Positions 15,772 to 33,883 of a DNA stretch of 64,000 bases are shown piece by piece. The first letter of the stretch is position 1. Every line of letters starts with the position of its first letter. This DNA comes from Rhodobacterales bacterium. Lineage in GTDB: Bacteria; Pseudomonadota; Alphaproteobacteria; Rhodobacterales; Rhodobacteraceae. Made by a program: the position numbers and the translations under genes. The notes under the pieces were generated by a model. It had not been told where the DNA came from. It made no database searches and worked only from the letters and a program-made list of their open reading frames with translations. The stretch is taken from contig PDRW01000026.1 of the NCBI GenBank assembly GCA_002746935.1, positions 1 to 64,000 of the forward strand, read 5' to 3'.

Positions 15772-16914
15772 CTATTTGCGGTAGGCCCTGAGATAGCGCC
15801 CCTCGAACGCCCGCTTTGCCCAGTGGAACAGGCGCAGCGGCGGCAAGGTGACCGAAAACCTGTGGCCGCGGAAAACCAGGATGCCCTTGTCGGCGGTGTC
15901 GATGATGCAGACGAGCTCCGACTTGAAATCGTGCCCCGGTTCCCGCCCGGCCATCTGATCGGCAATATTGGCCACCGCCGCTTCGGCCTGCAAATCCGCC
16001 TGATGCGCCTGTTTCGCCAGCCAGACGGGGCCCGGATAGGCGCCGCTGTCGCCCACCACATAAGTGCCGGCCCAGGCCTCGCCCACCACCCGGGTCTTCT
16101 CGTCGGCCTGCACGAAACCGCCGGGCGAGCGCGGCAGATCGGTATTGTCGAGCCAGGCCGGCCCGGTGAGCCCGGGCATGAACAGGATCAGATCGGTCGC
16201 GATCTCCTCGCGTTCGGTCACCACCTTGTCGGCCTCCATCCGCACCGGCTTGGCGCCGATATGAATGCCGATCTCCCGCCGCCGCATCTCGCCCAGAAGC
16301 CTGTCGACCGACTTCTCGCCCAGCCGCTGACCCGGCTTTTCGGCCGCGCTGACGAACACCAGCCGGAACCTGTCGCGCCGCCCCTGCCGCCGCAGCATGG
16401 TGTCGACCCCGAACAGAAACTCGAACATCGGCCCGCCCCGCACCGCCGACATGTCCTTCGGGTTGGCGCCGAAGCCGAAGGCGATGGTGCCGCCCTCCAT
16501 CTCCGCGATCCGGTCATGGATCCGCTGCCCCATCGCCACGCCCTCGCAGGGGACGACCGCGTGTTCGGCCAGCCCCGGCAGCTTCTTGATGTAGCGCCCG
16601 CCACTGGCGATGATCAGATAATCATTCGTGAGCACCTCGCCCGCCTCGGTCTCGACCGTGCGGCCGCCGTCGCGCACAGCGGTCACCCGGCCCTGGTGCC
16701 ACGCGACCCTTTCACGCGCGAAGAACCCGCCGAGATCGACGTCGAGATCCGCCGCCTTGCGCAGCCCCGATGGCATCCAGATCAGGCTCGGCAGATAGGT
16801 GAGATGGTTCGTCGGCGAGATCACGGTGATCTCGGCTGCGAGCTTCCGCTTGCGAATCGCGCGCACGGCGGTCAGCGCGCCGAAGCCGCTGCCGATGATG
16901 GTAATCTGGGTCAT
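15772..16914 (-). CDS. SQR-like FAD-dependent oxidoreductase
   Basis: A 380-residue flavoprotein of the two-dinucleotide-binding-domain superfamily, closest in pattern to sulfide:quinone oxidoreductases and flavocytochrome c. GSGFGALTA (8-16) binds FAD, IIASGGRY is the second FAD motif, GTYVVGDSGAYPGP (about 283-296) is the ATG/GD motif, and a basic amphipathic C-terminus could bind the membrane. Only Cys 123 and Cys 336 are present, so the middle Cys of the canonical three-Cys SQR site is missing. Sulfide oxidation is therefore doubtful; another quinone-linked or regulatory role is possible. It is a single gene. Confidence 0.78.
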   Translation of the reverse strand: MTQITIIGSGFGALTAVRAIRKRKLAAEITVISPTNHLTYLPSLIWMPSGLRKAADLDVDLGGFFARERVAWHQGRVTAVRDGGRTVETEAGEVLTNDYLIIASGGRYIKKLPGLAEHAVVPCEGVAMGQRIHDRIAEMEGGTIAFGFGANPKDMSAVRGGPMFEFLFGVDTMLRRQGRRDRFRLVFVSAAEKPGQRLGEKSVDRLLGEMRRREIGIHIGAKPVRMEADKVVTEREEIATDLILFMPGLTGPAWLDNTDLPRSPGGFVQADEKTRVVGEAWAGTYVVGDSGAYPGPVWLAKQAHQADLQAEAAVANIADQMAGREPGHDFKSELVCIIDTADKGILVFRGHRFSVTLPPLRLFHWAKRAFEGRYLRAYRK

Positions 16915-17994: not shown

Positions 17995-18681
17995 TCACGG
18001 CTTGAGCGGCACGAAATTGACCTTCTTGCGGGTTGTGATCCGGATGTCGACACGGCGGTTCAGGGCACGGCCTTCGGGGTTGTCCTGCCCGTTGATCTCG
18101 TTCGCCGCGACCGGCCGGGTCTCACCGAAGCCCGCCGTCGTCATCAGACTGCCGTCCATACCCCTGGCGAGAAACCACTCATACACCGCCCTCGCCCGGT
18201 TTTCGGAAAGGGTCTGGTTATACGCATCCGATCCCTTGCTGTCGGTATGGCCCTCAATGGCGATTTCGGTGCCTTCGTATTCGTGATACAGATCCAGCAC
18301 CTGTGCCAGGGCGGTCTGTGCCTCTTCGGAGAGCGTGAACTCATCGAAGGCAAACAGATAGTCGCCCGAAAGGCCGATGGTAAAGCCGAAACCGCTCGGA
18401 TCGCTCAGAAGGCTCGCGGCCCCGTCGATCGCCGAAGGGTCGCCGCTCAGGGCGCTGGCCTTCCTGGCCAGGGACACAGCGCCAGGAACCAGAGCGACAC
18501 CGCCCCGCTTCAGGGCAATGCCGCTGCCCTCCGGCCCGTAACCCGCCAGCACGGCCGCCATATCGACATCTGCGAAAGGATCGGGGTTTTCAGCCAGAAT
18601 GGCCTCGATATCCACCCCGTCCGCCAACAGCGGGTGCGCGCCCATGCACAGCACGACCGCCAGCCTCTTGAGAGAGCGCAT
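17995..18681 (-). CDS. OmpA-domain cell envelope protein
   Basis: A 228-residue secreted protein. Residues 1-20 form a Sec signal peptide ending LLADG. A novel N-terminal region (about 22-105) precedes an OmpA/MotB-type peptidoglycan-binding domain (about 110-215) with IAIEGHTDSKGSDAYN, LSENRARAV and GRALNRRVDI. It has no beta-barrel, so it is probably a periplasmic protein that anchors a complex to peptidoglycan. It starts 11 bp after the small secreted protein gene upstream, so the two are probably co-transcribed. It is the last gene of the long minus-strand run from 33.9 kb. Confidence 0.88.
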   Translation of the reverse strand: MRSLKRLAVVLCMGAHPLLADGVDIEAILAENPDPFADVDMAAVLAGYGPEGSGIALKRGGVALVPGAVSLARKASALSGDPSAIDGAASLLSDPSGFGFTIGLSGDYLFAFDEFTLSEEAQTALAQVLDLYHEYEGTEIAIEGHTDSKGSDAYNQTLSENRARAVYEWFLARGMDGSLMTTAGFGETRPVAANEINGQDNPEGRALNRRVDIRITTRKKVNFVPLKP

Positions 18682-18692
18682 CTGCCTGACCC

Positions 18693-19163
18693 TTATTGCG
18701 AGGGTTTGGCGATGACAAAGGGCGAGACGCCCGGAAGCGAAAGGTCCACCGGCCAGTCGGTGTCGCCCGGGGCTTCGAACTTGACCCAGCCGACCTGCTT
18801 TTCGCCGCCAGACATGTAGATCGTTGAGCCTTGAGCATCGGGGCCCCTGAACAGATTGCCGTCATCGCTTGATTGTTCGTATGTGATGGGCGAGGCGAGG
18901 TAGTCTCCATTGGCATCCTGGAGAACGGGAAACTTCTTGTCGCTGGTCGTGTAGACGACTTCGGTAACGTCCAGCAAATCCATGCGCTCGCCGTCCGTGC
19001 CGGTATTCTCGATCATGAAGGCAACGGTCAGAACGTCGTTGGCAACCGTGGCTTTCAGCAGATGCACTTCCCAGCCATACGGGCCGAATTGGGTATCCAG
19101 ATAATTGTCCGCAATGGCCGGACCGGCGATGGTGAGGGCGGCAGCGAGCAGCAGGCGTTTCAT
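18693..19163 (-). CDS. Small periplasmic protein, unknown function
   Basis: The 156-residue product starts at the ATG at 19163, supported by GGAGG seven bases upstream. Residues 1-18 are a signal peptide (cut near AIADN). The mature part is predicted mainly beta, with TVAFMIENTGTDGE, resembling immunoglobulin-like domains of the DUF4352 type, but I cannot assign it. No cysteines are seen in the mature part. It lies 11 bp before the OmpA-domain gene, so a joint envelope role is likely. Confidence 0.75.
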   Translation of the reverse strand: MKRLLLAAALTIAGPAIADNYLDTQFGPYGWEVHLLKATVANDVLTVAFMIENTGTDGERMDLLDVTEVVYTTSDKKFPVLQDANGDYLASPITYEQSSDDGNLFRGPDAQGSTIYMSGGEKQVGWVKFEAPGDTDWPVDLSLPGVSPFVIAKPSQ

Positions 19164-19378
19164 TCGTATCCTCCATGACAACGGCTGCCAAACATTTTGC
19201 CCGCATGCATGAATTGTCAAGCTGCCCGTTTGTCAGCGGCGGTTCTGCGCCCCTGTTTGCCGCTGGGGCCCGGTCCGGGAAGCGCCACTGCGCCCTTCGG
19301 CCCGGGCTCCCCGGCTCAAAAGGCGGCGCGCGCGCGGCGGCCAGGGCAGGCCGGTTTGCGGGCCGGTTCAGGCGATGC

Positions 19379-19966
19379 TCAGGCGGGGGTGCGGGTGCGG
19401 AGCCTCGGGAAGAAACGCCCGGCGAGGCTGCGCGCGCCCCTGCCCGCGCGCGGCGCGACCAGCGCGTCGAGCTTTGCCTCCACCGCCGCCCCCGGCACCG
19501 CCGGGCGGCCCGCTTCCACCTCGGCAAACAGGAATTCCGCCAGCGGCAGGATCGCGTTGTGGGTGCGCTGGTCGGAAAACACCTGTTCGGCCACTTCCTC
19601 AAGTTCGAACCAGATCGAGTCCGGGTCGCGCTTGCCGTCGATCCCGGCGATCAGCCGGCACAGCTCGTCGATCCGCGCCACGTCGCCCGAGCAGCAGGAA
19701 TTGGTGCCGCAGGCATGTTGTTCGGCGATCTGGCCGCCGAACAGTTCGATACAGCGGTTTTCCAGCACCGCGATCAGCGAGTTCAGGCTGTTGCCCTTGA
19801 GGATCTTGTCGCTCTCCATCACCGGCGGGCGCGGCAGCATGGTGATCGACAGGATTTCGAACCCCATGGCGCGTGCGGTCAGCGCGTGGCCTGCCTCGTA
19901 GACCGCCAGCCGGTAGTTGAGATCGGCGCAGCGGCCCCGCGGCAGCGGGCAGACGTCTTCATACAT
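19379..19966 (-). CDS. Degenerate FtsH-type (M41-like) peptidase domain protein
   Basis: A 195-residue protein without an AAA domain or membrane helix. VYEAGHAL (about 22-29) aligns with the FtsH zinc motif HEAGHA, but the first zinc ligand His is Tyr. IELFGGQIAEQ (about 73-83) aligns with FtsH LGGRxAEE, and SGDVARIDEL with the TGASNDI region holding the third ligand. The cluster CGTNSCC adds Cys residues that could bind metal instead. Proteolysis is doubtful; a binding or regulatory role is possible. It overlaps the dynamin-like gene upstream by 8 bp, implying coupled translation. Confidence 0.7.
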   Translation of the reverse strand: MYEDVCPLPRGRCADLNYRLAVYEAGHALTARAMGFEILSITMLPRPPVMESDKILKGNSLNSLIAVLENRCIELFGGQIAEQHACGTNSCCSGDVARIDELCRLIAGIDGKRDPDSIWFELEEVAEQVFSDQRTHNAILPLAEFLFAEVEAGRPAVPGAAVEAKLDALVAPRAGRGARSLAGRFFPRLRTRTPA

Positions 19967-21563
19967 CGGCGCCCTCCGGCTTCGCCCTGGAGGTTTTCTC
20001 CGGCTTCGCCTCCGGTGCCTGATCCGGCTTCGCCTCCGGGGCCTGATCCGGCTTCGCCTCCGGGCCTTGAGCCGGCTTCGCCTCCGGGGCTTCCGGCTCC
20101 ACCCTCGGGGCCTTCGCCGCTTCCACCGGCTCCAGCGGACGCGACTTCACCGAAGGATCGGCGTAGCGGTCGTTGAGCGACTGGATATGGCCCGCGACGG
20201 TATCGCGCACCGCGCGCAGCCGCGACTGCGCCCGTTTCGACCAGCCGACCGGACGCTTGCGCAGGATCGTCCGCCACGCCTTGGTGCCCTTGAGGAAAGC
20301 GGCGCGCAGATCGAGTTCGATCTCGCCATAGGCTTCCGGGAGGCTGCGGGCCACGCGCTTCGCCACCCGCGACCGGGCCGAGAAATGCACCACCCCGGCC
20401 ATCACCAGCGCGGCGATCGCCACCGCACCGGTCTCGATCCTGTTGGCGGCGATCCAGTCGAGACTGAAGAAATCGAGCAACGGCCAGTCGAAGGCCACCG
20501 CAAGCCCGCCGGTCGCGGCCAGCACCAGCACCAGCGCCACCAGGTCGATGATCCCCACCGACCGCCGCCAGCGGTCGCGCGCAGCCTCGAGCTGGGGCAG
20601 CACGTCATGTTCGAGCTCCTTCGACATGGTTTCGAGGAAGGAGACGATGCGGTAATTGCGGTGCAGCTCCACCTCTTCGATCCGGGCGCGGATCCGCGCC
20701 ATGTCGGTGTCGCGCTTCTCGCGGAACCGCTTCTCGCGCGCCGGATCCTTGATGACCACCGCCGCGCCTTCATCGTAGATGGTGAAGAACTGCCCCGCGG
20801 CAAGCCCGGCGGCGGCCAGCGAGCGCTGCCAGGCGCCGGTGATGTCTTCGGGGTTGTCTTCCGCGGCGGCTGTGTCGATCTGGTTGAGAACATAGAGGAA
20901 TTTCGACGCATCGGTGCGCACGGCGGTGCGCGCGACGAGATGGTCGAGGGTGTCCTGCATGGCGCCGGGCTCCGGGTGGCGGGCATCGAAGAACACCAGC
21001 ACCAGGTCGGACAGATCGAGGATGTGATCGGTGATCCTCAGCGTCGAGCGGCGCTGGTCGTCGGCATCGAACCCGGGGCTGTCGATGATGATCTTGTTTT
21101 CGATCGCCGGGGTCCGGGTGGTGCGCAGTTGCAGATAGCTCTCGATATGCTTGCCCTCGCCCTGCGCCACCTTCTCGATCTCGGAAGAAATCCGGAAGAA
21201 GGGGAAACGCGGGTCGGCGTCGAGCGCGGTGCCGGGGAGCGTGAGGTTGCCCGCCTGGTCCGACGAGCGGTGGCAGATCACGGTGAACTTGTCGTCCACC
21301 GCCTGGTTGCCGGTGTCCTGCACCTTTTCGCCCACGAAGGAGTTGATGAAGGTGGATTTGCCGGAGGAGAACGTGCCCAGCACGGCGATCAGCGGCCACC
21401 AGGAGATCCTTGTGGCAAGCGAGGTCTGGGCGTCGATCAGCCCCATGCCGCGCAGGATCCGGTCGGCCTTGTAATAGGTCGGCAGAACGTCGAGCAGCAC
21501 CGGGTTTTCGGCCTTGAGATGGCTTTCGAGCCGTTTGAGACGGGTAGTGAGTGACTGGTTCAT
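19959..21563 (-). CDS. Dynamin-like GTPase with membrane segment
   Basis: A 534-residue protein of the dynamin/EHD superfamily. The G domain (about 55-290) has the P-loop GTFSSGKSTFIN (G1), a G3-type region IIIDSPGFDADDQ (D-x-P-G), and LNQID (G4, N/TKxD-like). A helical stalk follows. Two hydrophobic helices at about 338-360 and 378-398 can anchor it in the inner membrane. The C-terminal 60 residues repeat EAKPDQAP. Bacterial dynamins remodel or fuse membranes. It overlaps the TPR gene upstream by 4 bp and the M41-like gene downstream by 8 bp, so the three are one translational unit. Confidence 0.85.
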   Translation of the reverse strand: MNQSLTTRLKRLESHLKAENPVLLDVLPTYYKADRILRGMGLIDAQTSLATRISWWPLIAVLGTFSSGKSTFINSFVGEKVQDTGNQAVDDKFTVICHRSSDQAGNLTLPGTALDADPRFPFFRISSEIEKVAQGEGKHIESYLQLRTTRTPAIENKIIIDSPGFDADDQRRSTLRITDHILDLSDLVLVFFDARHPEPGAMQDTLDHLVARTAVRTDASKFLYVLNQIDTAAAEDNPEDITGAWQRSLAAAGLAAGQFFTIYDEGAAVVIKDPAREKRFREKRDTDMARIRARIEEVELHRNYRIVSFLETMSKELEHDVLPQLEAARDRWRRSVGIIDLVALVLVLAATGGLAVAFDWPLLDFFSLDWIAANRIETGAVAIAALVMAGVVHFSARSRVAKRVARSLPEAYGEIELDLRAAFLKGTKAWRTILRKRPVGWSKRAQSRLRAVRDTVAGHIQSLNDRYADPSVKSRPLEPVEAAKAPRVEPEAPEAKPAQGPEAKPDQAPEAKPDQAPEAKPEKTSRAKPEGADV

Positions 21564-22774
21564 GGCCGTGTTCCCTGGTGGTCCTGAAGGCGCGCGGCGA
21601 GTGCGGCGGCCTTGTCAGGGGCAATGGATTGCAGGATCGGTTGCCAGGACATCACCCGCGCGCCCTCGCCGCGCTCGATGAGCAGAAGCCCGGCCTCATA
21701 CCAGGCGCTGGCGGCGGCGGCATAGTCCTGGGTGGCGAAAGCGAGATTGCCAAGCTCGCCGAGCACCTCGGCATTGGCCGGATGGGCCTTGGCAAGGGCG
21801 TCCATCTTCGCGCGGGCACCGGCGAGGTCGCCCGACCAATAGGCGGCGCGCATCTCCGCCAGCGCATCAGTGAGGCCGCCGGGGGTAGCGGCAGAGGGCG
21901 CCGGGACGGGTGCGGGCAGCGGCATGGTGAGCAGTGCGGGCTGCGGGGCAGCCAAGGGCGCGGGCTGCGGGGCGGCCAAGGGCGCAGGCTGCGGTGCAGC
22001 CAAGGGCGCGGGCTGCGGGGCAGCCAAGGGCGCAGGCTGCGGGGCGGCCAAGGGCGCGGGTTGCGGTGCGGGCGCAGGTGCGGCCGGGGCCGCCGCGGCA
22101 TCCGGGGTCTGTGCCCCGGCGAGCGGCGGGGGGACGGCCACCGGCTGAGCCTCGGCAACAAACGGCGGCACGACGACCGGCCCGGCTTCGGCAAGAAACG
22201 GCGGCACGGCGACCGGTTCGGCTTCGGCCAGAGGGGCGGGCGCGGGCATTTGCGCGGGCGCCGGGGCGCCGGGGCTGGCATGCTGGCCCGGCAAGACCGG
22301 CACGGCCCGTGGCAGGGGGTGCGGCACCGGGTGTTGCAGCGCGGCCGGGGCCGGTTGTGAAACAGGGTCCGCCGCGCCCGGCGCAGCCTCGCCCCCGTTT
22401 GAAGCCCCGTTTGAAGCCCCGTTCGAAACACTGTCCGGTGCCCCGTCCGACGCACTCTCCGCGAAGAGCGACGGGTCGGGGTAGACCGGGCCTTCGCCGG
22501 GCGCTTCCACGGCTGCCGCGGGGGCGCCCTCGGCAGATGCCGGGGCCGCCGCTTCCGGCGCGGGTGCGGCCAGCGGCTGCGGGGTGGTCTGAGGCGCGGG
22601 TGCGGTGGCGGCTGCGGGTGCGGCCCCGGGCGCGGCGGTTGTGGCCTCTGCGACCGGCGCCGCCGCACCGTACCCCGGGAGCAACCGGGCCAGCCTGTCG
22701 CGGTTGAACACCGCCACAACGCCCGCCACCAGCAGGAAATAGATCAGTACCAGACGCAGGATCGGCAGGACCAT
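21560..22774 (-). CDS. Membrane-anchored Pro/Ala-rich protein with TPR-like C-terminus
   Basis: A 404-residue protein. One N-terminal transmembrane helix (about 5-22) is followed by some 270 residues of Pro/Ala-rich linker, and a C-terminal helical region (about 305-404) reads as tetratricopeptide-like, with NAEVLGELGNLAFATQDY. The linker contains about five tandem copies of an 8-residue block PQPAPLAA, encoded by a 24-bp DNA repeat at about 21948-22070. A tether holding a protein-binding domain away from the membrane is the simplest reading. It is 35 bp after parA and overlaps the dynamin gene by 4 bp. Confidence 0.75.
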   Translation of the reverse strand: MVLPILRLVLIYFLLVAGVVAVFNRDRLARLLPGYGAAAPVAEATTAAPGAAPAAATAPAPQTTPQPLAAPAPEAAAPASAEGAPAAAVEAPGEGPVYPDPSLFAESASDGAPDSVSNGASNGASNGGEAAPGAADPVSQPAPAALQHPVPHPLPRAVPVLPGQHASPGAPAPAQMPAPAPLAEAEPVAVPPFLAEAGPVVVPPFVAEAQPVAVPPPLAGAQTPDAAAAPAAPAPAPQPAPLAAPQPAPLAAPQPAPLAAPQPAPLAAPQPAPLAAPQPALLTMPLPAPVPAPSAATPGGLTDALAEMRAAYWSGDLAGARAKMDALAKAHPANAEVLGELGNLAFATQDYAAAASAWYEAGLLLIERGEGARVMSWQPILQSIAPDKAAALAARLQDHQGTRP

Positions 22775-22809
22775 GAGGCGGTCTCCTCTTGAGGTTGGAT
22801 GCGGTGGTG

Positions 22810-23418
22810 TCAGTCGAAAACCGCAAGTGCCAGCGCTTCGAGTTCAGCCGCGGCCTTGCCACCCGGCTCCAGTTCGAAGGCCGCCAGCCCTTCGGAAAAC
22901 GACCGCCGGAAAGCCATGCGCTGCACCAGCTTGCACCCGAGCGCGGTGACGCCCGGCAGCATTTCGAGCGCGGCCAGCGTCTCTTCGTTTTCGCGGCTCA
23001 GCGGATGCGGATCGGCGCGGTTGACAAAGGCGCGGATGTCGAGCCCGTGGCCCTTGCCGCGCTCTTCCCCGACGATCTCGAGAAACCGCTGGGTGGCCCA
23101 GATGTCGGCCTGGGAGGGCGACACCGGCAGCAGCACCCGGTCTGCCCGGGCGATCGCGGCGCGCATTGCGGTCATGTCGGAAAGCCCGACGTCGATCAGC
23201 AGATCGCCCTTGCCGGATGCGGGCAGATCGGTCACCACGGTGATCTCCGGCTGGTAGCCGTATTCGCGGCGGATGTCGGCGGTGTCGACGATGGTGCGTT
23301 GCGGATCGAGGTCGGCCACGGTCACCTCACGCCCCGAAACCGCGCGCCAGACCGCGAGATTGAACACCACCGTGCTCTTGCCCGTCCCGCCCTTGAAATT
23401 GGCAACCAGAGTTTCCAT
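22810..23418 (-). CDS. Orphan ParA/MinD-type positioning ATPase
   Basis: A 202-residue deviant Walker A ATPase: FKGGTGKST (about 8-16) with the signature Lys, ADLDPQRT (switch I), and LLIDVGLSDM (Walker B). ParA relatives dimerise with ATP on nucleoid DNA or membrane and position plasmids, chromosomes, chemoreceptors or carboxysomes. No parB gene or parS-like repeat is nearby, so this is a cargo-positioning type and the cargo is likely encoded in the same run. The ATG at 23418 directly precedes the METLVANFKGG start; a frame to 23463 adds 15 unlikely residues. Confidence 0.87.
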   Translation of the reverse strand: METLVANFKGGTGKSTVVFNLAVWRAVSGREVTVADLDPQRTIVDTADIRREYGYQPEITVVTDLPASGKGDLLIDVGLSDMTAMRAAIARADRVLLPVSPSQADIWATQRFLEIVGEERGKGHGLDIRAFVNRADPHPLSRENEETLAALEMLPGVTALGCKLVQRMAFRRSFSEGLAAFELEPGGKAAAELEALALAVFD

Positions 23419-23514
23419 TGCGCCCCCCTTTCGCATTGCTTGCCGTCCGCTGCGGCCCCCCATTGCGGCCCCCGTCGCGGCCCATCATCGCGGCCCGCCC
23501 GTTCAGACCGGATT

Positions 23515-24414
23515 TCAGTTGGCCGGCGGCGGCACCGGGGCACCCGGGGCGCCGGCCCCCGGCGCCCGCCTCGCCACCGGCGGCTCGACCTCGCGCCAAC
23601 CCGCAGGCGGCGCGAAAGCCGCCGGGTCGACCGGTCCGACGACGATGTTGCGCAGGCTGCGGGTCGGCCCCCCGGGAATTTCCTCGCGCAGATCGACGCG
23701 CAGTTCAGGGTCGAAGTACCAGGCACCGGATTCCGGCGGCTGGCCAGGACGGGTGAGCGTGATCGCCCAGTGTTCGGCGCTGCGGCCCTCGATCTCCACC
23801 ATCGCCTGGAAGGTCCGCGTCAGCACGGTGCCGTCGGGGCCCTGCTCGCGCAGCGCCCGCTGGCGGGTGCCGTCCCACAGGATGCGGCTGACATCGGCGC
23901 CGCCGGGCGGGCCGATCTCCCAGAGTTCGGCGGTGATCCCGGAGGCCACTTCGGTGCCGAGGCGGCGGCAGAGGTCGGCGCTCATCATGGTCTCGCCGCA
24001 GGGTGCCCTGTAGGCGCCGCTTCCGGCTTGCGGGTCCGGCTCGGTCCGGACCTTGAACCAGACCTGCCGGGCCGGGTCGAGCATGTACATCATGCCTTCG
24101 CCCTGGCGCAGGATCTGCACCATGGCGCGGCCGCCGTCATTGCGTTCCATCCGCATGTCGGGGCCGGACTGGACCACCCGGCCGGTGGATTCGCTGCCGT
24201 CGGGCATCTGGTAGAGCACATCGGCGGCATAGGCCGGGATTGCGTCCGCGGCCGCGGCGGGACCGGCCGCGCCACCGGCAACCGAAAAAGACAATGCCAG
24301 AAGCGGCAGCACCGGCATCAGCGCGGCAGTCTTGCGCAGGACACTCCGGCGGGTCCGGCCAGTGTGGCGCCGGGCGGCCTGACGAGGGGATGTATTAAGC
24401 CGGAACAGTCGCAT
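23515..24414 (-). CDS. Secreted protein of unknown function
   Basis: The 299-residue product starts at the ATG at 24414, with AGGAGG six bases upstream; open frame continues to 24696 but is unsupported. A long basic N-region with TGRTRRSVLRK precedes a hydrophobic core (about 30-50), consistent with a signal peptide, possibly Tat. The mature part is beta-rich (VLYQMPDGSESTGRVVQSG, FQAMVEIEGRSAEHWAI), and the pattern recalls periplasmic beta-barrel domains such as DUF4412 or LolA-like proteins, without certainty. Two Cys (in APCGETMMSADLC) could form a disulfide. It sits between the sulfur-globule-like gene and parA. Confidence 0.75.
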   Translation of the reverse strand: MRLFRLNTSPRQAARRHTGRTRRSVLRKTAALMPVLPLLALSFSVAGGAAGPAAAADAIPAYAADVLYQMPDGSESTGRVVQSGPDMRMERNDGGRAMVQILRQGEGMMYMLDPARQVWFKVRTEPDPQAGSGAYRAPCGETMMSADLCRRLGTEVASGITAELWEIGPPGGADVSRILWDGTRQRALREQGPDGTVLTRTFQAMVEIEGRSAEHWAITLTRPGQPPESGAWYFDPELRVDLREEIPGGPTRSLRNIVVGPVDPAAFAPPAGWREVEPPVARRAPGAGAPGAPVPPPAN

Positions 24415-24760
24415 CTGAGCCTCCTGAACGTCAGTGTTCCCGGGAAATTCTTCAAGGAACAGCGGTGCTTTCCAGGCCAAGGCTACATTGGCCGAATTGG
24501 CTCCACAAGTGGCCGGGGCGGCCGGGATGGCCCGGATTGCGGGAACCGGCCCGGATTGCGGGAACCGGACGTATGCCCCCGGGATCGCGGCCCCGGAGCC
24601 GCCTGTGGCCGCCTGCGCCGTTTCACCGGCGGTTTCAGGGCCGGAGCCTGGCGGAACGGGACGGGCGCCGGGCGGCACATCCGGGTGGCCAAGCAAGGCC
24701 GCGGCCTGCCCCCGGACAACCGGAGACAGGCCAGATTTTCAGCCGGAAACCCGAAGGGCC
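24415..24760. other. Intergenic region with 19-bp duplication
   Basis: 346 bp between two genes of the run. It contains two adjacent copies of a 19-bp unit (24531-24568) and the ribosome binding site of the downstream gene. No gene is supported. A promoter for parA and the downstream genes could lie here, but none was recognised. Confidence 0.5.
24531..24568. repeat. Two tandem 19-bp repeats
   Basis: CCCGGATTGCGGGAACCGG occurs twice head to tail, at 24531-24549 and 24550-24568, identical in both copies. Confidence 0.95.
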
Positions 24761-25240
24761 TTACTGGGCGGCCGGGGCTTCGGCCGGGGCGGCTTCCGCC
24801 GGGGCCTGACCTTCCGGAGCGGCCGGCATCGGCGGCGGCGGCATCATGCCCGGCTGCGGACCCCAGCCATAGGGGCCATAGCCATAGGGAGCGTTGTAGC
24901 CGTAGCCATAGCCGCGGCCGTAGCCGGAACCACGACCGGCGCCGGACCCGGAGGCCGAGAAGCCGAAGTCGAAGTCGCCGGTGCCGTCCATCAGGCCGTC
25001 AAACGGACCCCAGTCGGAGCCCCAGTTGTTGCCGTTGTTCCAGGGGAACCAGTTGTTGCCCCAGCCGTTGTTCCAGCCGTTGTTCCAGGGCGCACCGCCC
25101 CAGCCGTTGTTCCACGGAGCCCAGCCACCGCCATAGGGGGCATAGCCGTAGCCCGGACCCCAGTACTGGGCATCGGCGGCGGTGGCGAGGCCCGCGGCCA
25201 TGCCGGCGGCGAGGGCGATCGTCGTCAGTTGCTTGCGCAT
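24761..25240 (-). CDS. Secreted Gly/Trp/Asn/Tyr-rich protein, sulfur-globule-like
   Basis: A 159-residue protein. The signal peptide is residues 1-24 (cut after ADAQ). The mature protein is built from aromatic-glycine repeats: PWNNGWGG and NNGWGNNW blocks (about 40-75), then [20 protein letters not shown] (about 100-125), and a Pro/Ala tail. Composition and pattern resemble the structural envelope proteins of bacterial sulfur globules (Sgp) and other glycine/aromatic-rich secreted proteins. Deposition of sulfur is a possibility, not shown; no sox or dsr genes are in the window. Its position in the RND-dynamin run suggests it is an exported structural component. Confidence 0.72.
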
Positions 25241-25337
25241 GTTGGTTTACTCCCAAATTGTCCTGTCCCTAGAAATCTCTGGTTCCAAGCACCGGGACCT
25301 GCGCTCTTCCCCTTTGCCTCGCCCTGAGGAGAGACGT

Positions 25338-26708: not shown

Positions 26709-26734
26709 CTGGCCGACGTGCGCAAACGAGCGGT

Positions 26735-27574
26735 TTACCGGTCCGGCCGCATCGGATAGGGCGCCACAGCGCCTGTCGTTGGCGAGGATGAGTATCCCCA
26801 GGTCGGTTGGCCAGGGAATGCGGCAGGTTGACCCGGTGCGACCGAAATGCCCGGCTGCGCCCCGCCAACCGGGGCCACCGGCGCCGGAGCGCGCGGCGGA
26901 GCGCGAAGCTGAGACGGCGCCTGGACGGGAGCAAACCCGGGGGCTTGCGGTGGGGAATACCCCTGACCGGCGGCATCCGGCGCATGCCGGAACTGCCAGT
27001 TTGGAGGCTGCCAGCCCTGCATCTGCCAGCCAGCGGCCGGTTGCGTGCCGCCCGCCGAAGACGCCTGCGGCGCCGCCCTGCCCGGCCCGTACCCCGCCCC
27101 GTAACCCGGCCTGTAACCCTGCGGCATATAGGGCATGGGCTTCAGGGCGCTGCGGCCCGGCCGGGACCGGACCGGCATGCCCGGTGCAAAGGCCGGGGCG
27201 GTCGCGGTGGCTTCGCCGCCCGGCGGAGTGGCAGGGCCCGCGGCCCCCTCCCCGCCCGGCGGCGGCGCGGGGGGCTGCATCCAGTAGGGCAGTTGCAGCG
27301 CGGCGCCGGAGCCGTTGTGGCCGAAGCGCGGCACTGTCTCCCGGGCCTGCGGAACCGGCGGCACCGGAACCGGCGGGCCGAAGCCGCCTGCGGGCATGAC
27401 CGGAAACGGCCCGGGCACCGGCGGCAACGCAGTCTGCGGCGGCTGCATCGGGGGTGGCGGCACCTGTGGAGCCTCTGCGACCGCTGGTCCGGCAGCGGCA
27501 AGCGCCACCGCGAGACAAAGCGCGGCCCGGTGCCGGAAATGGCGCGGCAGATCGTGGCGAGCGGGATCATTCAT
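26735..27574 (-). CDS. Secreted proline-rich protein
   Basis: The 279-residue product starts at the ATG at 27574, with GGAGG nine bases upstream inside the RND coding sequence; the start overlaps the RND stop by 8 bp. A signal peptide covers about residues 12-33 (ends AVAEA). The mature part is about one quarter proline with short blocks such as PPPPMQPP and YGAGYGPGR, and contains no domain I recognise. Translational coupling to the RND permease argues that it is made with the transporter. Confidence 0.66.
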   Translation of the reverse strand: MNDPARHDLPRHFRHRAALCLAVALAAAGPAVAEAPQVPPPPMQPPQTALPPVPGPFPVMPAGGFGPPVPVPPVPQARETVPRFGHNGSGAALQLPYWMQPPAPPPGGEGAAGPATPPGGEATATAPAFAPGMPVRSRPGRSALKPMPYMPQGYRPGYGAGYGPGRAAPQASSAGGTQPAAGWQMQGWQPPNWQFRHAPDAAGQGYSPPQAPGFAPVQAPSQLRAPPRAPAPVAPVGGAQPGISVAPGQPAAFPGQPTWGYSSSPTTGAVAPYPMRPDR

Positions 27575-30500
27575 CTGCACTGTCCTCCAGACCCTTCAGA
27601 CGGATGCCACGCCGTCCGCCGCGCGCGGCGGCGGGCTTTGCCGGTCCGGTCTGAGCGGCCGGTTTCGGCGCGGGATTTGCGCGGGCAGAAGGCTTCGCGG
27701 GCGCGCGCCGGGGCTTCACCGCCGGTTTGGCCTTCGCCTTTGGCGTCGCGGCGGGCGCGGGGCGGGCCTTCGGTTTGGCTGAGGGCGCCGCGCCGGCTTC
27801 TGCCTTCGCGGGGGCTTCCGGCCCGGCCTTCGGCTTCGCGGCGGGCTTCGGCTTCGCCACCGGCCCGGCCTTCGGCGTCTTGGCAGGTTTGGGCCTTGCC
27901 GCCGGTTTGGTCTTTGCCACCGGGCTGGCCGCGGGTTTCGGCTTTGCCGCCGGTCTGGCCTTCGGCTTCGTGGCGGGCGCTTTCGGCTTCGCCACCGGTT
28001 CTGCGGCCTGCTTCGCCGCCGGTCTGGCCTTCGGCCTCGCCGCCGGTTTCGCCTGCACCGCCGCCGCTGCGGATTTCGCCTCCGTCGGCGCGTCTTCGGC
28101 GCGCGCTTCGGGCTCCTCCCCGACCACAGCATCCGCCCGTGCCACCGCCGGTTCGACAGCGGCAAGCGCTTCGGCGATGCTCTCCCCGGCGGGCTCCGCC
28201 GCCGGTCCGGCGGCGGTCACCTCTGCCCGGGGCGCCCGGACACGCGCCCATCCGCTCGCCACCCGGGCCACCAGCCCCGAGGCCGCCGCGCTCACCTTGC
28301 CGAGCGACCGGGCAATGCCGCCGCCGGTGGTGGGACCACCCGGACCATCGTCCGGCCCCTGCGGCTTCGGCATCTCCGGCACCTGACCCGCTGCCGGGTC
28401 GACCGGCCCGTCGATCGACGCCAGCAGCGCCTTCGACCATGTGACGCAGCCCAGCGGGATCACGATCAGCGTGAGCAACGTCGACACCAGCCCGCCGAAC
28501 ATCAGCGAAATCGCCATGCCCTGGAAGATCGGGTCGGAGAGGATCACCGAAGACCCCGCGATCAGCGCCAGCGCGGTGATGATGATCGGCCGCGTCCGGG
28601 TCTGACAGGAATAGATCACCGCATCCTGCACCCGCATGCCGGTCTTCACCGCATGCAGCGAGAAATCCACCAGCAGGATCGAGTTTCGCACGATGATTCC
28701 TGCCAGCGCGATGAAACCGATCATCGAGGTCGCGGTGAACGACGCGCCGAACATCCAGTGGCCGGGCACGATGCCGATCAGCGTCAGCGGGATCGGCGCC
28801 ATCACGATCGCCGGGATGGTGAAATTGCCGAATTCCCAGACCACCAGCACATAGATCAGCAGCAGCGCCACCCCATAGGCCAGCCCCATGTCGCGGAAGG
28901 TCTCATAGGTCACGGTCCATTCGCCGGTCCATTCGAGCGCCGATTTCATCGAGACATCGGGCGGTCCGAGGTAGTTGGTCTCGACCCGCACCCCGTCGGG
29001 GGCGGTGTAGCCGTCGAGCATGTCCTCGATCTCGAAGATCGCGTAGATCGGCGCGCCGAGGGCGCCGGTGACATCGGCGGTGACGAATTCCACCGCGCGC
29101 AGGTTCTTGTGGAAGATCGGGTCGTCGAGCCGGAATTCCTCGAAGGAGCCCAGCTCCGTCAGCGGGATCATCGCCCCGGTCGCCGAGGGCACCGGCAATT
29201 GCCCGAGCCGGCCGAACTGGCCGCGCAGCGACAGCGGCATTTGCAGGTAGATATAGGTCGGCTCCACGGCGCGGTCGTTCTTCACGTCGCCCAGGATGTA
29301 ACCGCCCATCGCCATTTCCAGCTGCCGGTTGATGGTCTCCACCGAAACCCCGCGGCGCGAGGCCTTTTCACGGTCGACCACGAACCGCCAGGAGCTGTAG
29401 CTGTCCTGCATCAGCGCGTCGGCGTCGACGGTGATTTCCGCCGCGTCGAACATGTCGCGGATGTCGCGCGCCACCTGACGGCGGGTTTCGGCATCAGGCC
29501 CGTAGACCTCGGCGACCATGGTTTGCAGCACCGGCGGCCCGGGCGGCATTTCGATCACCTCGATCCGCGCGCCCATCTCGCGGGCCAGCGGGGTCAGCAT
29601 CTCGCGCACCACCACGGCGAGGTCTTCCGACGACCGGTCGCGATGGTGCTTGAGGCCGATTTCCACCTGAATATCCGCCATCCACGGGCGGTTGCGCAGA
29701 TAGGTATGCCGCACCAGACCGTTGAAGTTGAACGGGCTCGCGGTGCCCACATAGCTTTGCAGCGCCACCACTTCGGGGATGTCCATCAGCTTTTCGGAGA
29801 GCCGCGAGGCCACGTTGGCGGTGACCGGAAGCGGGGTGCCCTCGGGCATGTTGATGGTGACGTTGAACTCCGGCTTGTTGTCCTTCGGCAGCATCTTCAC
29901 CGTCACCGACTGGGTGTAGAACAAAAACAGCGACAGGAAGAACACCACCACCAGACCGATCAGGAACGACCAGCCCGCGACCCGCTTGTGGATCAGCGGC
30001 ACCAGCGTCTTCACGAAGAAGCGGTTGAGCCAGAGGGTCTGCCTGTGTTCGCTCTCCTGGCTCTTTTCCAGCGACGCCATGGAGGGGCGGATCCGCTGCG
30101 CGAGCCAGGGGGTGAACAGGAAGGCGGCGAACAGCGAGAACAGCATCGCCACCGAACCCAGCGCCGGGATCGGCGCCATGTAGGGGCCCATCATGCCGCG
30201 CACGAAGCCCATCGGCAACAGCGCCGCGATCACCGTGAAGGTCGCGAGAATGGTCGGGTTGCCGACCTCGCGCACCGCGTCGACCGAGACCGCTTCCGAG
30301 ACCTCGCCATCCTCGAGCCACCTTCGATAGATGTTTTCCACCACGACAATGGCGTCGTCCACCAGAATGCCGATCGAGAAGATCAGCGCGAATAGTGACA
30401 CCCTGTCGATGGTGAAGCCCAGGATCCAGGCCGAGAACACCGTCATCAGGATCACGATCGGGATCACGATCAGCACCACGATGGCGGCACGGACACCCAG

Positions 30501-31733
30501 CGCCAGCCAGATCAGCAGCGTCACCGCGCCGGTCACCACGAACAGCTTGAAGATCAGCTCGTTGACCTTTTCGTTCGCGGTCTCGCCATAGTTGCGGGTG
30601 ATTTCCACATGGACATTGTCGGGGATCAGGCTGCCCTTCAGCCGCTCGACCGAGGCCAGCACCGCATTGGCGACCGAGACCCCGTTGGAGCCGGATTTCT
30701 TGGCCACCGCGATGGTCACCGCCGGGGCGCCGAGCGGGGCCAGCTCGATCTCGCCATGATCGCCGCCTTCGCCGGCTTCACCATGTTCGGCATGATGGCC
30801 ATAGGCCGGGCCGGTGTAGTAGCTCACCATCGAGGTGGCATCGTCGGTGCCCTGGGTCACCAGCGCCACATCGCGGATATAGGTCGGCTGGCCGTGGCTC
30901 ACGCCGATCATCAGGTTTTCGATGTCACGCGCATTGCGCAGGAAGGAGCCGGTGTAGAGCGTGAACGAGCTCGTGCCCGCCTCCACCATGCCGACGCCGC
31001 GTTCCGAATTGGCGGCGTTGATGGTCTGGGCGATCTCGTCAAGGCCGATGCCGAAGCCTGCGAGACGTTCGGGGAAGACCTCGACCTTGATCGCATCGGA
31101 ACGCCCGCCAACCACGAAGCTCTGCGAGGTGTTGGGCACCTCCTTCAGCCGCTGCATCACGTCAAGCGACAGCGAGCGCAGCGCGCCTTCGTCGACCGTG
31201 TGGCTCCACAGCGTCAGCGTCACCACCGGCACGTCGTCCACGCCCTTGGGCTTGATCAGCGGCTGGCTGACCCCGGGCGGGATCTTGTCGAGGTTGGACT
31301 GGATCTTGTCGTTAAGCTTGACCAGCGACGGGCCCATCTCCTCGCCGACCTCGAACTGCACGGTCACCATGGCGCCGTTGCGTTCGGAGGTCGAATAGAC
31401 ATGCTCGACACCGGGGATCTCGCTCATCAGCCGCTCCAGCGGGTCGGTGGCGAGCGAGGCCACCTGTTCGGCGGAAATCCCGGGGTACTGGAACATCACG
31501 TCCACCATCGGCACCGAGATCTGCGGATCTTCCTGCCGGGGGGTAACGACGATGCCCATCAGGCCGAGCGCGAAACACGCGATCAGCAGCAGCGGCGAAA
31601 GCGGCGAGTTGATGAAGGCTTTCGCAAGGCGGCCGGCCAGGCCGAGATCTTCGCCATGCCCGTTGCCATTTTCGCTGCCGTTCACGGTGGCACCATTGCC
31701 GGTGCCGTTCTGTTTGGCGGTCTGATCGGTCAT
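27567..31733 (-). CDS. RND-family efflux permease with long H1-like tail
   Basis: A 1388-residue inner-membrane proton-driven transporter. Residues about 30-1090 form a full RND permease: TM1 at about 42-60, a first periplasmic domain beginning PRQEDPQISVPMVDV, and the proton relay ILVDDAIVVVEN in TM4. A second half repeats the fold. The first periplasmic part carries a His-rich insert, YGHHAEHGEAGEGGDHGE. After the last helix comes a cytoplasmic tail of nearly 300 residues made of Lys/Ala/Pro repeats (KPKA, KPAA), like histone H1 or AlgP, which is not a normal RND feature. GGAG lies seven bases before the ATG. The adaptor gene is upstream. Confidence 0.94.
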   Translation of the reverse strand: MTDQTAKQNGTGNGATVNGSENGNGHGEDLGLAGRLAKAFINSPLSPLLLIACFALGLMGIVVTPRQEDPQISVPMVDVMFQYPGISAEQVASLATDPLERLMSEIPGVEHVYSTSERNGAMVTVQFEVGEEMGPSLVKLNDKIQSNLDKIPPGVSQPLIKPKGVDDVPVVTLTLWSHTVDEGALRSLSLDVMQRLKEVPNTSQSFVVGGRSDAIKVEVFPERLAGFGIGLDEIAQTINAANSERGVGMVEAGTSSFTLYTGSFLRNARDIENLMIGVSHGQPTYIRDVALVTQGTDDATSMVSYYTGPAYGHHAEHGEAGEGGDHGEIELAPLGAPAVTIAVAKKSGSNGVSVANAVLASVERLKGSLIPDNVHVEITRNYGETANEKVNELIFKLFVVTGAVTLLIWLALGVRAAIVVLIVIPIVILMTVFSAWILGFTIDRVSLFALIFSIGILVDDAIVVVENIYRRWLEDGEVSEAVSVDAVREVGNPTILATFTVIAALLPMGFVRGMMGPYMAPIPALGSVAMLFSLFAAFLFTPWLAQRIRPSMASLEKSQESEHRQTLWLNRFFVKTLVPLIHKRVAGWSFLIGLVVVFFLSLFLFYTQSVTVKMLPKDNKPEFNVTINMPEGTPLPVTANVASRLSEKLMDIPEVVALQSYVGTASPFNFNGLVRHTYLRNRPWMADIQVEIGLKHHRDRSSEDLAVVVREMLTPLAREMGARIEVIEMPPGPPVLQTMVAEVYGPDAETRRQVARDIRDMFDAAEITVDADALMQDSYSSWRFVVDREKASRRGVSVETINRQLEMAMGGYILGDVKNDRAVEPTYIYLQMPLSLRGQFGRLGQLPVPSATGAMIPLTELGSFEEFRLDDPIFHKNLRAVEFVTADVTGALGAPIYAIFEIEDMLDGYTAPDGVRVETNYLGPPDVSMKSALEWTGEWTVTYETFRDMGLAYGVALLLIYVLVVWEFGNFTIPAIVMAPIPLTLIGIVPGHWMFGASFTATSMIGFIALAGIIVRNSILLVDFSLHAVKTGMRVQDAVIYSCQTRTRPIIITALALIAGSSVILSDPIFQGMAISLMFGGLVSTLLTLIVIPLGCVTWSKALLASIDGPVDPAAGQVPEMPKPQGPDDGPGGPTTGGGIARSLGKVSAAASGLVARVASGWARVRAPRAEVTAAGPAAEPAGESIAEALAAVEPAVARADAVVGEEPEARAEDAPTEAKSAAAAVQAKPAARPKARPAAKQAAEPVAKPKAPATKPKARPAAKPKPAASPVAKTKPAARPKPAKTPKAGPVAKPKPAAKPKAGPEAPAKAEAGAAPSAKPKARPAPAATPKAKAKPAVKPRRAPAKPSARANPAPKPAAQTGPAKPAAARGGRRGIRLKGLEDSADE

Positions 31734-31821
31734 GTCAGCTCCACGATCCTGCGTGTCTCACCCAGAACGTGCCCGCGCTCATTCGCATTCATACGGGGCG
31801 CCGCTCTGTTCTTTCGTTCTC

Positions 31822-32094
31822 ACATGCCGGAAGGCGCAAACCGGGGCCGATTTGCGCGGCATGCTGAGTTGTGGTCGCATGCCGGAAAGCGCAAAACCGG
31901 GGTCCACTTTTGCGCGGCATGCTGAGTTGTGGTCGCATGCCGGAAAGCGCAAAACCGGGGTCCACTTTTGCGCGGCATGCTGAGGGTCGTCGCATGCCGA
32001 AAGGCGCAAAACCGGTTTCCACTTTTGCGCGGCATGCTGAGGGTCGTCGCATGCCGAAAGGCGCAAAACCGGTTTCCACTTTTGCGCGGCATGC
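31822..32094. repeat. Palindromic repeat array, five units of 57-58 bp period
   Basis: Four 46-bp units (31877-31922, 31935-31980, 31992-32037, 32049-32094) plus a shorter first unit (about 31822-31863), separated by about 11 bp. Each unit is a hairpin: GCATGCC and GCGCAAAA on the left pair with TTTTGCGC and GGCATGC on the right, with a small bulge and an ACCGG-type loop. The array fills the gap between the adaptor and permease genes. Related single copies occur at 866 and 17299. It may be a REP-like element that stabilises the upstream mRNA or attenuates expression of the permease. Confidence 0.93.
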
Positions 32095-32096
32095 TT

Positions 32097-33257
32097 TTAA
32101 TGCCCGGAAATCAGCGACGAGGGCGGCGACAGGATCACCGTTTCGCCGCCGGACAGGCCGGAGACCACCGAAATCGACCCGTCCGCAAGCGGATAGCCCA
32201 CGCGCACGATGCGCAGAGACGGCACCCCCTGGTCGAGCACGAAGACGGCCGGAAGCGAGCCGCGCCAGATCAGCGCTTCGGCCGGCACCGAGGTCTGCCC
32301 CGAGGTCGGCACGGAGGCGTCCGGCACGGTCACTTCGGCATACATGCCGGGGCCGCCGGGGGTACCGATCGGCAGGTCGAACTTGACGGTGACGGTATGG
32401 CGCCTGGCGTCGGCCACCGGATAGATCTGCGCCACCCGCGCCTCCACCGGCCCGCCGCCCGAATCGAGCCGCGCCGGCACCAGCATGCCCTCGGCCAGCC
32501 CCGCCGCGAGCCGCACCGGCACATCGGCCTCGATGCGCAGATAGTCGATGAAGGCGAAGTCGATGATCGGCATCCCCGGCTGCACGGTGTCGCCCACCTC
32601 CACATGCTTGCGCATGATGATGCCGTCGAACTCGGCGGTGGCCTGGAAATCCTTGAGCGTCGCGTCGATGGCGTCGAGATTGGCCTGGGCGGCAGCCAGC
32701 CCGCTGGTGGCGGTTTCAACGCCGATGCCCTGGGCATAGAGGTCGGCATGGCGCTCGACGCCGCTGTCCGACTGGCCCATCATCTCCGAGAACCCTTGCG
32801 TGAAGAACTGGTCGAAGGTGGCCGGAATCCCCATGCCCGGAACCCCGGTCACCGAGTTGACCCGCGGCGAATAGATTTCGCGCGAATATTGCATGTAGGA
32901 GTTGCGCAGCGCCGCTTCCGCCTGCCGGACCTGGCTTTCGGCCGCGCGGCGTTTGGCACGAAGGTCGGCGTCGTCGATCCGCACCAGCATTTCGCCGGTC
33001 TTGGCGCGGTGGCCCTCGGAACCGGCAAGATAGGTGATCCGCCCCGGCACCTGCGCAGCAACGGTGATCTCCTTGTAGGGAATGACCGTACCGCCGACGA
33101 TGGCCGAGCCGCCGACCTGCGACACCATGACCGGGGCCGTACGATACCCCTCCGCCAAGGCGGACACCGGATTGTCCTGCGACAGCGCCGCCTGACCGGC
33201 GATGACCGCCAGAGCGAAGGCCGCAAGAACGGGTGCGATTCCAGCAGTTTTCTGCAT
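32097..33257 (-). CDS. RND efflux periplasmic adaptor subunit
   Basis: A 386-residue membrane fusion protein that links an RND permease to an outer-membrane channel. Signal peptide about 1-26. A lipoyl half-motif around GTVIPYKEITVAAQVPGRITYL, an alpha-hairpin (about 95-210) and the second lipoyl half EFDGIIMRKHVEVGDTVQPG follow, then a beta-barrel and membrane-proximal domain. The hairpin is interrupted by about 40 residues including a GVPGMGIPATFDQFFTQGF stretch, longer than in typical adaptors. AAAGGGG lies upstream of the ATG. No TolC-type gene is in the window. Confidence 0.92.
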   Translation of the reverse strand: MQKTAGIAPVLAAFALAVIAGQAALSQDNPVSALAEGYRTAPVMVSQVGGSAIVGGTVIPYKEITVAAQVPGRITYLAGSEGHRAKTGEMLVRIDDADLRAKRRAAESQVRQAEAALRNSYMQYSREIYSPRVNSVTGVPGMGIPATFDQFFTQGFSEMMGQSDSGVERHADLYAQGIGVETATSGLAAAQANLDAIDATLKDFQATAEFDGIIMRKHVEVGDTVQPGMPIIDFAFIDYLRIEADVPVRLAAGLAEGMLVPARLDSGGGPVEARVAQIYPVADARRHTVTVKFDLPIGTPGGPGMYAEVTVPDASVPTSGQTSVPAEALIWRGSLPAVFVLDQGVPSLRIVRVGYPLADGSISVVSGLSGGETVILSPPSSLISGH

Positions 33258-33427
33258 CCCTACCCCTTTGTTTCAAGTCCCGACCGGATTGGCCCGATCC
33301 GCCTCCCCGTGCCTGCGCGAAGTATATTTGGCACCTGCGGGATTTCACTACGGTTTTTCAGGCATCCACACAACATGCTATCTGAATGGTTGCAAGAGGC
33401 AGGGCACCGGGCCGGGCCGGCAGGCGG

Positions 33428-33883
33428 TCAGAACGGCGAAAACCACCCCATCGGGTTGGCCATGACATTGCCGACCCGGCTCATGTCGCGGGTCATCCGG
33501 CTCATGTTGGCGTTGACCCCATAGATGTTGCCGACCATCGCATTGACTCCCTTGTCCATGCTCTCGATGTCGCCCGACACGGCCGCGAGCGCGCCGTCCA
33601 TGGAGCCGATCGCGCCCGTCATGGTCTCCATCGTCCCGACCATGGTCTGCATCGCCAGCGTCATCTCGCCCATGTTGACGGTGAGCTTGTCCATGTTGGC
33701 CGAAATGCGGTCCATGTCGTCCACCATTTCCGCAAAATGCTGGTTCATCTCCACCATTGTGCCGGTGAGGGTATAGACCTGCCGGGCCATGCCGTAGAGC
33801 ACCCAGGACAACAGAGCCATGACCACCACGATCAGAAAGGTGGTGATGACGATGAATCCACCGCTGGTTGCGCGCCGGTACAT
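33428..33883 (-). CDS. Met-rich membrane-anchored helical protein
   Basis: The 151-residue product starts at the ATG at 33883, with GGAGG five bases upstream. A transmembrane helix at about 12-34 is followed by about 110 residues of predicted continuous helix in the periplasm, with a hydrophobic heptad pattern and some 22 methionines (about 15%). Examples are GEMTLAMQTM and NMSRMTRDMSRVGNVM. The form is a long coiled-coil rod; the Met content could bind copper(I)-like metals or simply fill the core. I recognise no named family. It is 170 bp upstream of the RND adaptor on the same strand. Confidence 0.7.
   Translation of the reverse strand: MYRRATSGGFIVITTFLIVVVMALLSWVLYGMARQVYTLTGTMVEMNQHFAEMVDDMDRISANMDKLTVNMGEMTLAMQTMVGTMETMTGAIGSMDGALAAVSGDIESMDKGVNAMVGNIYGVNANMSRMTRDMSRVGNVMANPMGWFSPF

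Follow-up and report, generated by a model that had tools for sequence, protein, structure and literature searches.

Here we describe a conserved gene module from the window, i.e., the whole stretch of 64,000 nucleotides that was analyzed (positions 1 to 64,000, forward strand, of contig PDRW01000026.1, Rhodobacterales bacterium assembly GCA_002746935.1), in which an RND pump, a protein resembling sulfur-globule envelope proteins (SGPs), an orphan ParA-family ATPase and a dynamin-like GTPase are encoded close together. As judged from comparative sequence data, this module comprises 11 minus-strand genes (19379–33883), from one encoding a Met-rich rod to one encoding an M41-like protein, and is tied to SGPs and to reverse Dsr. 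It also presents an unexpected link between pump and ParA: a short peptide of the RRGIRLK type, near the end of a long tail on the pump permease, varies together with the ParA gene. The evidence is computational throughout, and no description of such a system was found in the open-licence literature searched.

A same-strand run is by itself weak proof of a functional unit, but a conserved gene order points to a real one. Among 248 Rhodobacteraceae genomes, matches to the dynamin were found in eight (the window's own, four from other genera with 64–68% identity, and three weak ones), and all four relatives included the run of adaptor, permease, low-complexity genes, G7 (a predicted periplasmic protein), ParA, TPR protein and dynamin. 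The order in these four genera is Rod-RNDA-RNDB-(low complexity)-G7-ParA-TPR-dynamin-M41-like, with exceptions: the M41-like gene and the rod were each detected in three of the four, neither being detected in the stretch read from G108, and the rod of G169 is positioned after the M41-like gene. A broader locus scan (two peptide patterns, one genome per species) yielded 46 loci, mostly from Rhodobacteraceae (including Sinisalibacter, Maritimibacter and Marinosulfonomonas), the remainder coming from Magnetospira, Leucothrix, Thiothrix, Thiomargarita, Thiohalobacter, other Thiotrichales, Chromatiales, Aquisalimonas and Vicinamibacteria. Sinisalibacter, Maritimibacter and, in the genus Thiothrix, Thiothrix eikelboomii are carriers of the cluster. 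The order was largely kept in alphaproteobacterial loci, as far as each locus extends, and recurs in Gammaproteobacteria without the M41-like gene and with variable completeness, from adaptor, permease, p4/p5-like, SGP, G7, ParA, TPR, rod, DUF302 and dynamin genes (L055, L056 and L144, not all equally complete) down to TPR and dynamin only (Leucothrix L045). Cluster copies of the permease are 58–84% identical, both classes included, and the adaptor 43–79% across the loci where it was found; rod relatives adjoin the cluster in both classes, and counterparts of the low-complexity proteins p4 and p5 hold equivalent positions in many loci.

An earlier reading of the window (hereafter the sequence-only reading) had proposed that all 13 genes of the run form a combined system, to be abandoned if homologues proved scattered with no conserved neighborhood. 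They are not scattered, and because the order recurs in two classes a chance run of genes was rejected. The combined unit stands for the 11 genes from rod to M41-like; the remaining two, g12 and the OmpA-domain gene, matched in 0 of the 46 named loci (some of which stop shortly past the dynamin or the M41-like gene) and were rejected as members.

The conserved tail peptide linked to ParA is a feature beyond the sequence-only reading. The permease (RNDB, 1388 aa, 27567–31733, minus strand; ACR_tran 467 bits, above cut-off) ends in a low-complexity, K/A/P-rich tail of ~290 residues (27570–28442; 52 K/R vs. 24 D/E, net +28), near the end of which lies the peptide GRRGIRLK (27594–27617). Across 99 tails (20 alphaproteobacterial and 79 gammaproteobacterial, truncated tails included), length and composition vary and the end is conserved: the pattern R(R/K)GI(R/K/Q)(L/I/V)(K/N) occurs in frame in 58, vs. 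0.004 expected by shuffling, at a median distance of 8 residues from the tail end. The basic charge of the tail as a whole was set aside as the link to ParA, since some loci with ParA have near-neutral tails (e.g., net −2 in L056) and the terminal peptide holds.

The co-variation was evaluated in 79 gammaproteobacterial RND loci (all 78 matches of at least 1350 bits, from 65 of 321 genomes, plus L055), 25 of which were excluded for a contig end or less than 6 kb downstream without ParA, leaving 54 usable loci. ParA was called from tblastn matches of at least 100 bits on the same strand within 13 kb, and the peptide from RGI(R/K/Q)(L/I/V)(K/N), accepted in frame or, within the 1500 nt that follow the core, in whichever frame it occurred; L009, L013 and L015 are identical in contig to L029, L028 and L044, respectively, with no double counting in these tests. 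The peptide was found in 32/32 loci with ParA and was absent from 18/22 without it (p-value 7.5e-11), one locus with RKGIRLK (L170) having been added by hand (31/32 and p-value 1.3e-9 before). Agreement with the peptide over the same 54 loci was 32 for dynamin, 29 for rod, 21 for TPR and 29 for G7, and wherever ParA and dynamin were discordant the peptide followed ParA (18/18). Five loci (L147, L149, L157, L159, L186) keep dynamin, TPR and rod and lack both ParA and the peptide; in L147, L149 and L157 the TPR gene overlaps G7 or lies at most 65 nt away, which leaves no room for parA. In a 74-permease tree, 11 branches carry a change in ParA and 9 a change in the peptide, six of these being shared (0/20000 random placements; branches weighted equally, a single parsimony reconstruction, FastTree tree rooted at the midpoint). 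Such joint changes suggest that the pump and ParA units are functionally linked. All 20 alphaproteobacterial loci have both ParA and peptide (18/20 under a narrower rule, which L039 and L040 miss as variants).

The ParA-family protein itself (22810–23418, minus strand; CbiA 2.1e-11) scores 120 bits against ParA_partition, under the cut-off of 180, and matches ParF/ParA in PDB at ~9e-15. Its deviant Walker A motif is intact (KGGTGKST in the window; KGG(T/S)GKST in six of seven aligned relatives, the seventh row starting past the motif), and no ParB gene was seen in the cluster. By established RND topology, the permease C-terminus is cytoplasmic, on ParA's side of the membrane. Partners of ParA/MinD ATPases are reported to contact the ATPase via a positively charged, disordered N-terminus (PMC10241942), and a single lysine is critical in the partner McdB (PMC10241942, PMC12204374). 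A pump whose long, flexible tether bears a basic peptide fits such a partner, though at the opposite protein end, which suggests that the RRGIRLK-type peptide is a candidate ParA contact.

The second line of evidence concerns sulfur globules. Of three low-complexity secreted proteins singled out by the sequence-only reading, one (24761–25240, minus strand; N/W/G/Y-rich, its first 25 residues signal-peptide-like by eye) does resemble sulfur-globule envelope proteins (PF17228, 4.6e-05), and the other two, p4 and p5, match no family. PF17228 matched in 3/248 Rhodobacteraceae genomes, each time within the cluster, and the other two cluster genomes of this sample encode an N/W/G-rich secreted protein at the same spot that PF17228 missed. 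Two in-cluster gammaproteobacterial SGPs score 51.1 and 56.2 bits, vs. a cut-off of 26.7, and 13 of 27 genomes with a dynamin relative had a PF17228 match. In the gammaproteobacterial sample (321 genomes; the class to which Thiothrix belongs), 65 genomes had the cluster-type RND, 79 the dynamin and 48 PF17228: the RND was present in 43/48 genomes with PF17228 vs. 22/273 without (Fisher p-value 2.6e-31, relatedness uncorrected), and the dynamin in 43/48 vs. 36/273 (6.6e-26, likewise uncorrected). The score threshold for the RND was chosen once a gap in the scores had become apparent (full-length matches at 1485, then 1180, with one partial at 1352), and scoring was limited to the two best candidates per genome. 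Pairs lay at most 12 kb apart, on either strand, in 15 genomes for RND and PF17228, 26 for RND and dynamin and 11 for dynamin and PF17228. Regular-expression counts of p4, p5 and SGP missed the window's own SGP-like gene and were dropped as unreliable.

The module is also associated with reverse Dsr. A dsrA match over cut-off was obtained for 18/20 alphaproteobacterial cluster genomes (including one Magnetospira) vs. 5/48 family controls without the dynamin (p-value 4e-10), the two exceptions being the window genome (no match) and G590 (fragments). Another 13 genomes carry cluster genes, in some cases only partly visible; nine of them had dsrA over cut-off, with partial matches in G594, G596 and G602 and none in G603. 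Among gammaproteobacterial genomes counted as dsrA-positive (n = 100; match E-value 1e-100 or better, 97 over cut-off), the RND was present in 36/40 with PF17228 vs. 16/60 without, and in the other 221 genomes in 7/8 vs. 6/213. By comparison, soxB did not discriminate as a sulfur marker (17/20 cluster genomes vs. 31/48 controls, p-value 0.14). With PF17228 inside the cluster, and both PF17228 and dsrA associated with it, a role in sulfur deposition, offered in the sequence-only reading as a guess, gains support.

We therefore weigh a specific proposal, which we consider reasonably probable, namely that the module makes and places sulfur globules, with ParA acting on the pump through the tail peptide. 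The SGP-like protein, perhaps with p4 and p5, would coat a growing periplasmic globule, toward which the RND pair, possibly assisted by the LolA-like G7, would carry hydrophobic sulfur species. Cytoplasmic ParA would act on the pump via the terminal RRGIRLK peptide of the flexible tail, such that pump complexes and the globule sites they feed would be spread over the nucleoid and divided between daughter cells. The membrane-anchored TPR protein and the rod may hold the assembly together, and the EHD-like dynamin may shape the inner membrane around the globule, as its two predicted transmembrane (TM) segments and EHD-like profile matches would allow. It is tempting to go further and to picture a dedicated sulfur organelle, in which the RND pump would be the membrane-spanning partner of the orphan ParA and RRGIRLK the switch, ParA would place, count and segregate a coated store across the membrane, and the dynamin would form a pouch; this bolder version we advance only tentatively.

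Several observations weigh against the proposal. Taken alone, the window's SGP-like protein falls below the PF17228 cut-off (24.6 vs. 26.7 bits; 22.3 in a six-frame search, where 29.9 bits, over the cut-off, was reached only with in-frame neighbors), and no PF17228 match was obtained for 14 of the 27 dynamin-relative genomes or for 22 of the 65 RND-positive gammaproteobacterial genomes, including Thiothrix G266. In L047, L048, L052, L058, L059 and L060, the stretches read contain a related dynamin and no further cluster gene. Under the narrower in-frame rule, the peptide is found in 27/32 gammaproteobacterial ParA loci, the five failures being variants (L175, L190, L206) or interrupted frames (L148, L055); under the broader rule, 4/22 ParA-less loci keep it (L153, L174, L177 and L198, ParA elsewhere in these genomes not having been sought), and ParA-less L209, scored as lacking it, has the partial form RRGIRA. 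In the window genome (84% complete), dsrA went unmatched and soxB did not reach its cut-off, and 5/48 controls have dsrA without the dynamin. For dsrA, a near relative (G594), whose dynamin at locus L043 is 96% identical where the two match, has two dsrA pieces, both at contig ends, which makes incompleteness a fair but unproven excuse. No outer-membrane factor gene was found by profile searches among the 13 window genes (relatives and the rest of the genome were not searched), deletion of sgpD in Allochromatium vinosum had no visible effect according to the part of the study consulted (PMC10386293), and all p-values ignore the relatedness of genomes.

These data can also be accommodated by a pump that protects the envelope under sulfur stress, expelling polysulfides or hydrophobic sulfur, with the low-complexity proteins shielding the periplasm, the dynamin repairing the inner membrane, ParA only distributing pumps and globules arising as a side effect. 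RND pumps are commonly exporters, and in some dsrA-positive genomes (L160, L162) the pump pair stands without other module genes in the stretches read. However, the pump of dsrA-positive Gammaproteobacteria tracks PF17228 over sulfur oxidation alone (the 36/40 vs. 16/60 above), both classes have an SGP gene within the cluster, and none of the 13 genes encodes an outer-membrane factor; we hold this explanation to be rather unlikely.

The sequence-only reading had favored an envelope or extracellular structure fed by the pump. On this view, p4, p5 and the SGP-like protein would be exported past the outer membrane, to bind sulfur or minerals outside. Several sulfur oxidizers do deposit sulfur outside the cell, as the consulted part of one study notes (PMC10386293), and an OmpA-domain gene adjoins the cluster in the window. 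However, that gene is not conserved with the module, no secretion channel is encoded among the 13 genes, ParA and a membrane-anchored GTPase better suit an inner-membrane process, and the sulfur-globule envelope proteins studied in A. vinosum are described in the same source as periplasmic (PMC10386293); an extracellular location is thus unsupported, and we view it as improbable. We give still less credence to a horizontally co-transferred block of two unrelated units, a pump and coat serving sulfur and a ParA-TPR-dynamin set serving the envelope or cell cycle. Such a block would be in line with the wide distribution of the dynamin family (79/321 gammaproteobacterial genomes, partly without the cluster), which also weakens the dynamin as a marker of the system, and with the alphaproteobacterial RND sequences forming a single clade (Rhodobacterales, 100/100; 20 rows, two pairs of which are identical contigs). 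The joint changes of tail peptide and ParA on the tree, pointing to a functional tie, and the recurrence of the order across two classes both speak against it.

Turning to the run as a whole, the 13 successive minus-strand genes of the sequence-only reading, some of them overlapping, were all confirmed as genes (33883 down to 17995), and their labels broadly hold. Matches over the Pfam cut-off were obtained for the RND adaptor, permease, ParA, dynamin and OmpA proteins, those of the TPR, M41 and sulfur-globule-like proteins being below. The run may be expressed as one transcript; with three overlapping junctions (permease/p4, 14 nt; TPR/dynamin, 4 nt; dynamin/M41-like, 8 nt) and three gaps of more than 200 nt (adaptor-permease, 363 nt; SGP-like-G7, 346 nt; M41-like-g12, 215 nt), a single transcript is not established, and a promoter and terminator scan was no richer than shuffles (1 vs. 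1.1 and 10 vs. 9.7). The window genome totals 2.8 Mb in 94 contigs.

The rod (33428–33883; 151 aa, called from its open reading frame and GC content at third codon positions) has a Met-rich coiled-coil-like segment after one N-terminal TM helix (residues 11–29 by hydropathy). It is followed by the RND periplasmic adaptor (RNDA, 32097–33257; HlyD_D23 1.6e-14, 54 bits, above the Pfam cut-off; RND_mfp 155 bits, also over cut-off) and, beyond the permease, by p4 (26735–27580, start codon uncertain), a Pro-rich low-complexity protein with a signal-like start (GPF...PYWMQ), and p5 (25338–26708, Pfam scan over 25338–26660), also of low complexity with a signal-like start (NPW...APxxLDxxLS...SPFG). 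G7 (23515–24414, starting at 24414 or 24318) has no Pfam match of its own; the DUF4412/LolA-like assignment comes via relatives, with DUF4412 in 8/21 family members (best 2.2e-07) and LolA_like weakly in one. The TPR protein (21560–22774; TPR_16 2e-05, below cut-off) combines an N-terminal TM anchor (residues 5–23) with a Pro/Ala-rich linker. The dynamin-like GTPase (19959–21563; Dynamin_N 1.1e-15, 58.4 bits vs. a cut-off of 27) has the G1 motif GTFSSGKST in 4/4 rows and matches EHD2/EHD4 in PDB at 1e-06 to 6e-05. In the M41-like protein (19379–19966), which has no AAA match and scores 13.6 bits vs. the M41 cut-off of 29.9, Tyr replaces the first His of HExxH in 18/18 rows aligned to the HEAGH of FtsH (YEAGH at 19886–19900 in the window); this loss of the first zinc ligand makes an ordinary FtsH-type protease unlikely. 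The protein also has two invariant Cys and was found in alphaproteobacterial loci only. Outside the conserved module lie g12 (18693–19163), a small secreted protein with no Pfam match, and the OmpA-domain protein (17995–18681; OmpA 9.3e-20), all genes of this paragraph being on the minus strand.

Also outside the module, the adaptor-permease gap is filled mostly by 4.8 copies of a 57-bp palindromic tandem repeat (31823–32095), for which 38 matches in the window genome, its own copy counted, indicate a dispersed repeat family. Elsewhere in the window, a perfect 8-bp tandem repeat (GGAAGTCC, 6.5 copies) occupies 13082–13133. Downstream of the cluster, an FAD oxidoreductase gene (15772–16914) shows a weak resemblance to type III sulfide:quinone reductase (79.6 bits vs. 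a cut-off of 525); its case for membership is weak, a similar gene occurring, among the 46 loci, only after the dynamin of Magnetospira L040 and L042. In other genomes, a TM-anchored DUF302 protein (e.g., L055 8790–9380; L010 1274–1861) recurs in gammaproteobacterial clusters and beside some alphaproteobacterial ones, and was not found in the window module. Locus L144 has a PAS-sigma54 activator gene divergent from the adaptor (1948–3288); a small protein with no Pfam match (3590–3985) is also encoded upstream of this adaptor, with look-alikes by eye in L146 and L157. Three loci (L160, L162, L163) have a cluster-type RND pair that lacks the tail peptide and, over the stretches read, is unaccompanied by the rest of the module, and in three Vicinamibacteria loci (L046, L050, L051) a dynamin of this family was found, with other cluster genes undetected save for a weak RND match.

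How sulfur globules are formed, fed and placed is poorly known, and the cluster offers named candidates for coat, transport, membrane shaping and positioning, all within a single unit. Should the proposed globule-placing role be true, it would provide a partner for an otherwise orphan ParA, add a transmembrane cargo to ParA-type positioning, and represent a sulfur counterpart of carboxysome or magnetosome positioning. On the practical side, a tail-peptide pump together with ParA and SGP could mark possible globule formers among reverse-Dsr Rhodobacteraceae.

Compared with known systems, the pump is like HAE-type RND pumps (AcrB/MdtB kind) in its adaptor, permease and ACR_tran profile, and unlike them in its long RRGIRLK-ended tail and the absence of an outer-membrane channel gene from the cluster; it also scores far below the NCBIfam cut-offs of the named pump families it matched. 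The dynamin is similar to EHD and bacterial dynamin-like proteins (a Dynamin_N domain and two predicted TM segments, with EHD2/EHD4 the closest sequences of solved structure), but forms a separate family, partly tied to these clusters. Magnetosome clusters exemplify the making, shaping and placing of a mineral-bearing compartment by a single gene cluster, a likeness which here is of idea only. The SGP-like protein is repetitive and putatively secreted, like the secreted envelope proteins SgpA-D of A. vinosum, where SgpD sits on globules and sgpD adjoins a gene for an exporter of hydrophobic or amphiphilic compounds (PMC10386293, in the part consulted); however, in that part sgpD is its own transcription unit and neither ParA nor dynamin is named, and the window protein is below the Pfam cut-off alone. 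Finally, the McdAB carboxysome system and other ParA/MinD cargo systems share with the module an intact deviant Walker A ATPase and a candidate partner whose terminus is basic and disordered, as far as the portions consulted describe them (PMC10241942, PMC12204374). Unlike in McdAB, the candidate partner here is an RND pump with a conserved C-terminal peptide, and the putative cargo would be periplasmic, separated from ParA by the membrane.

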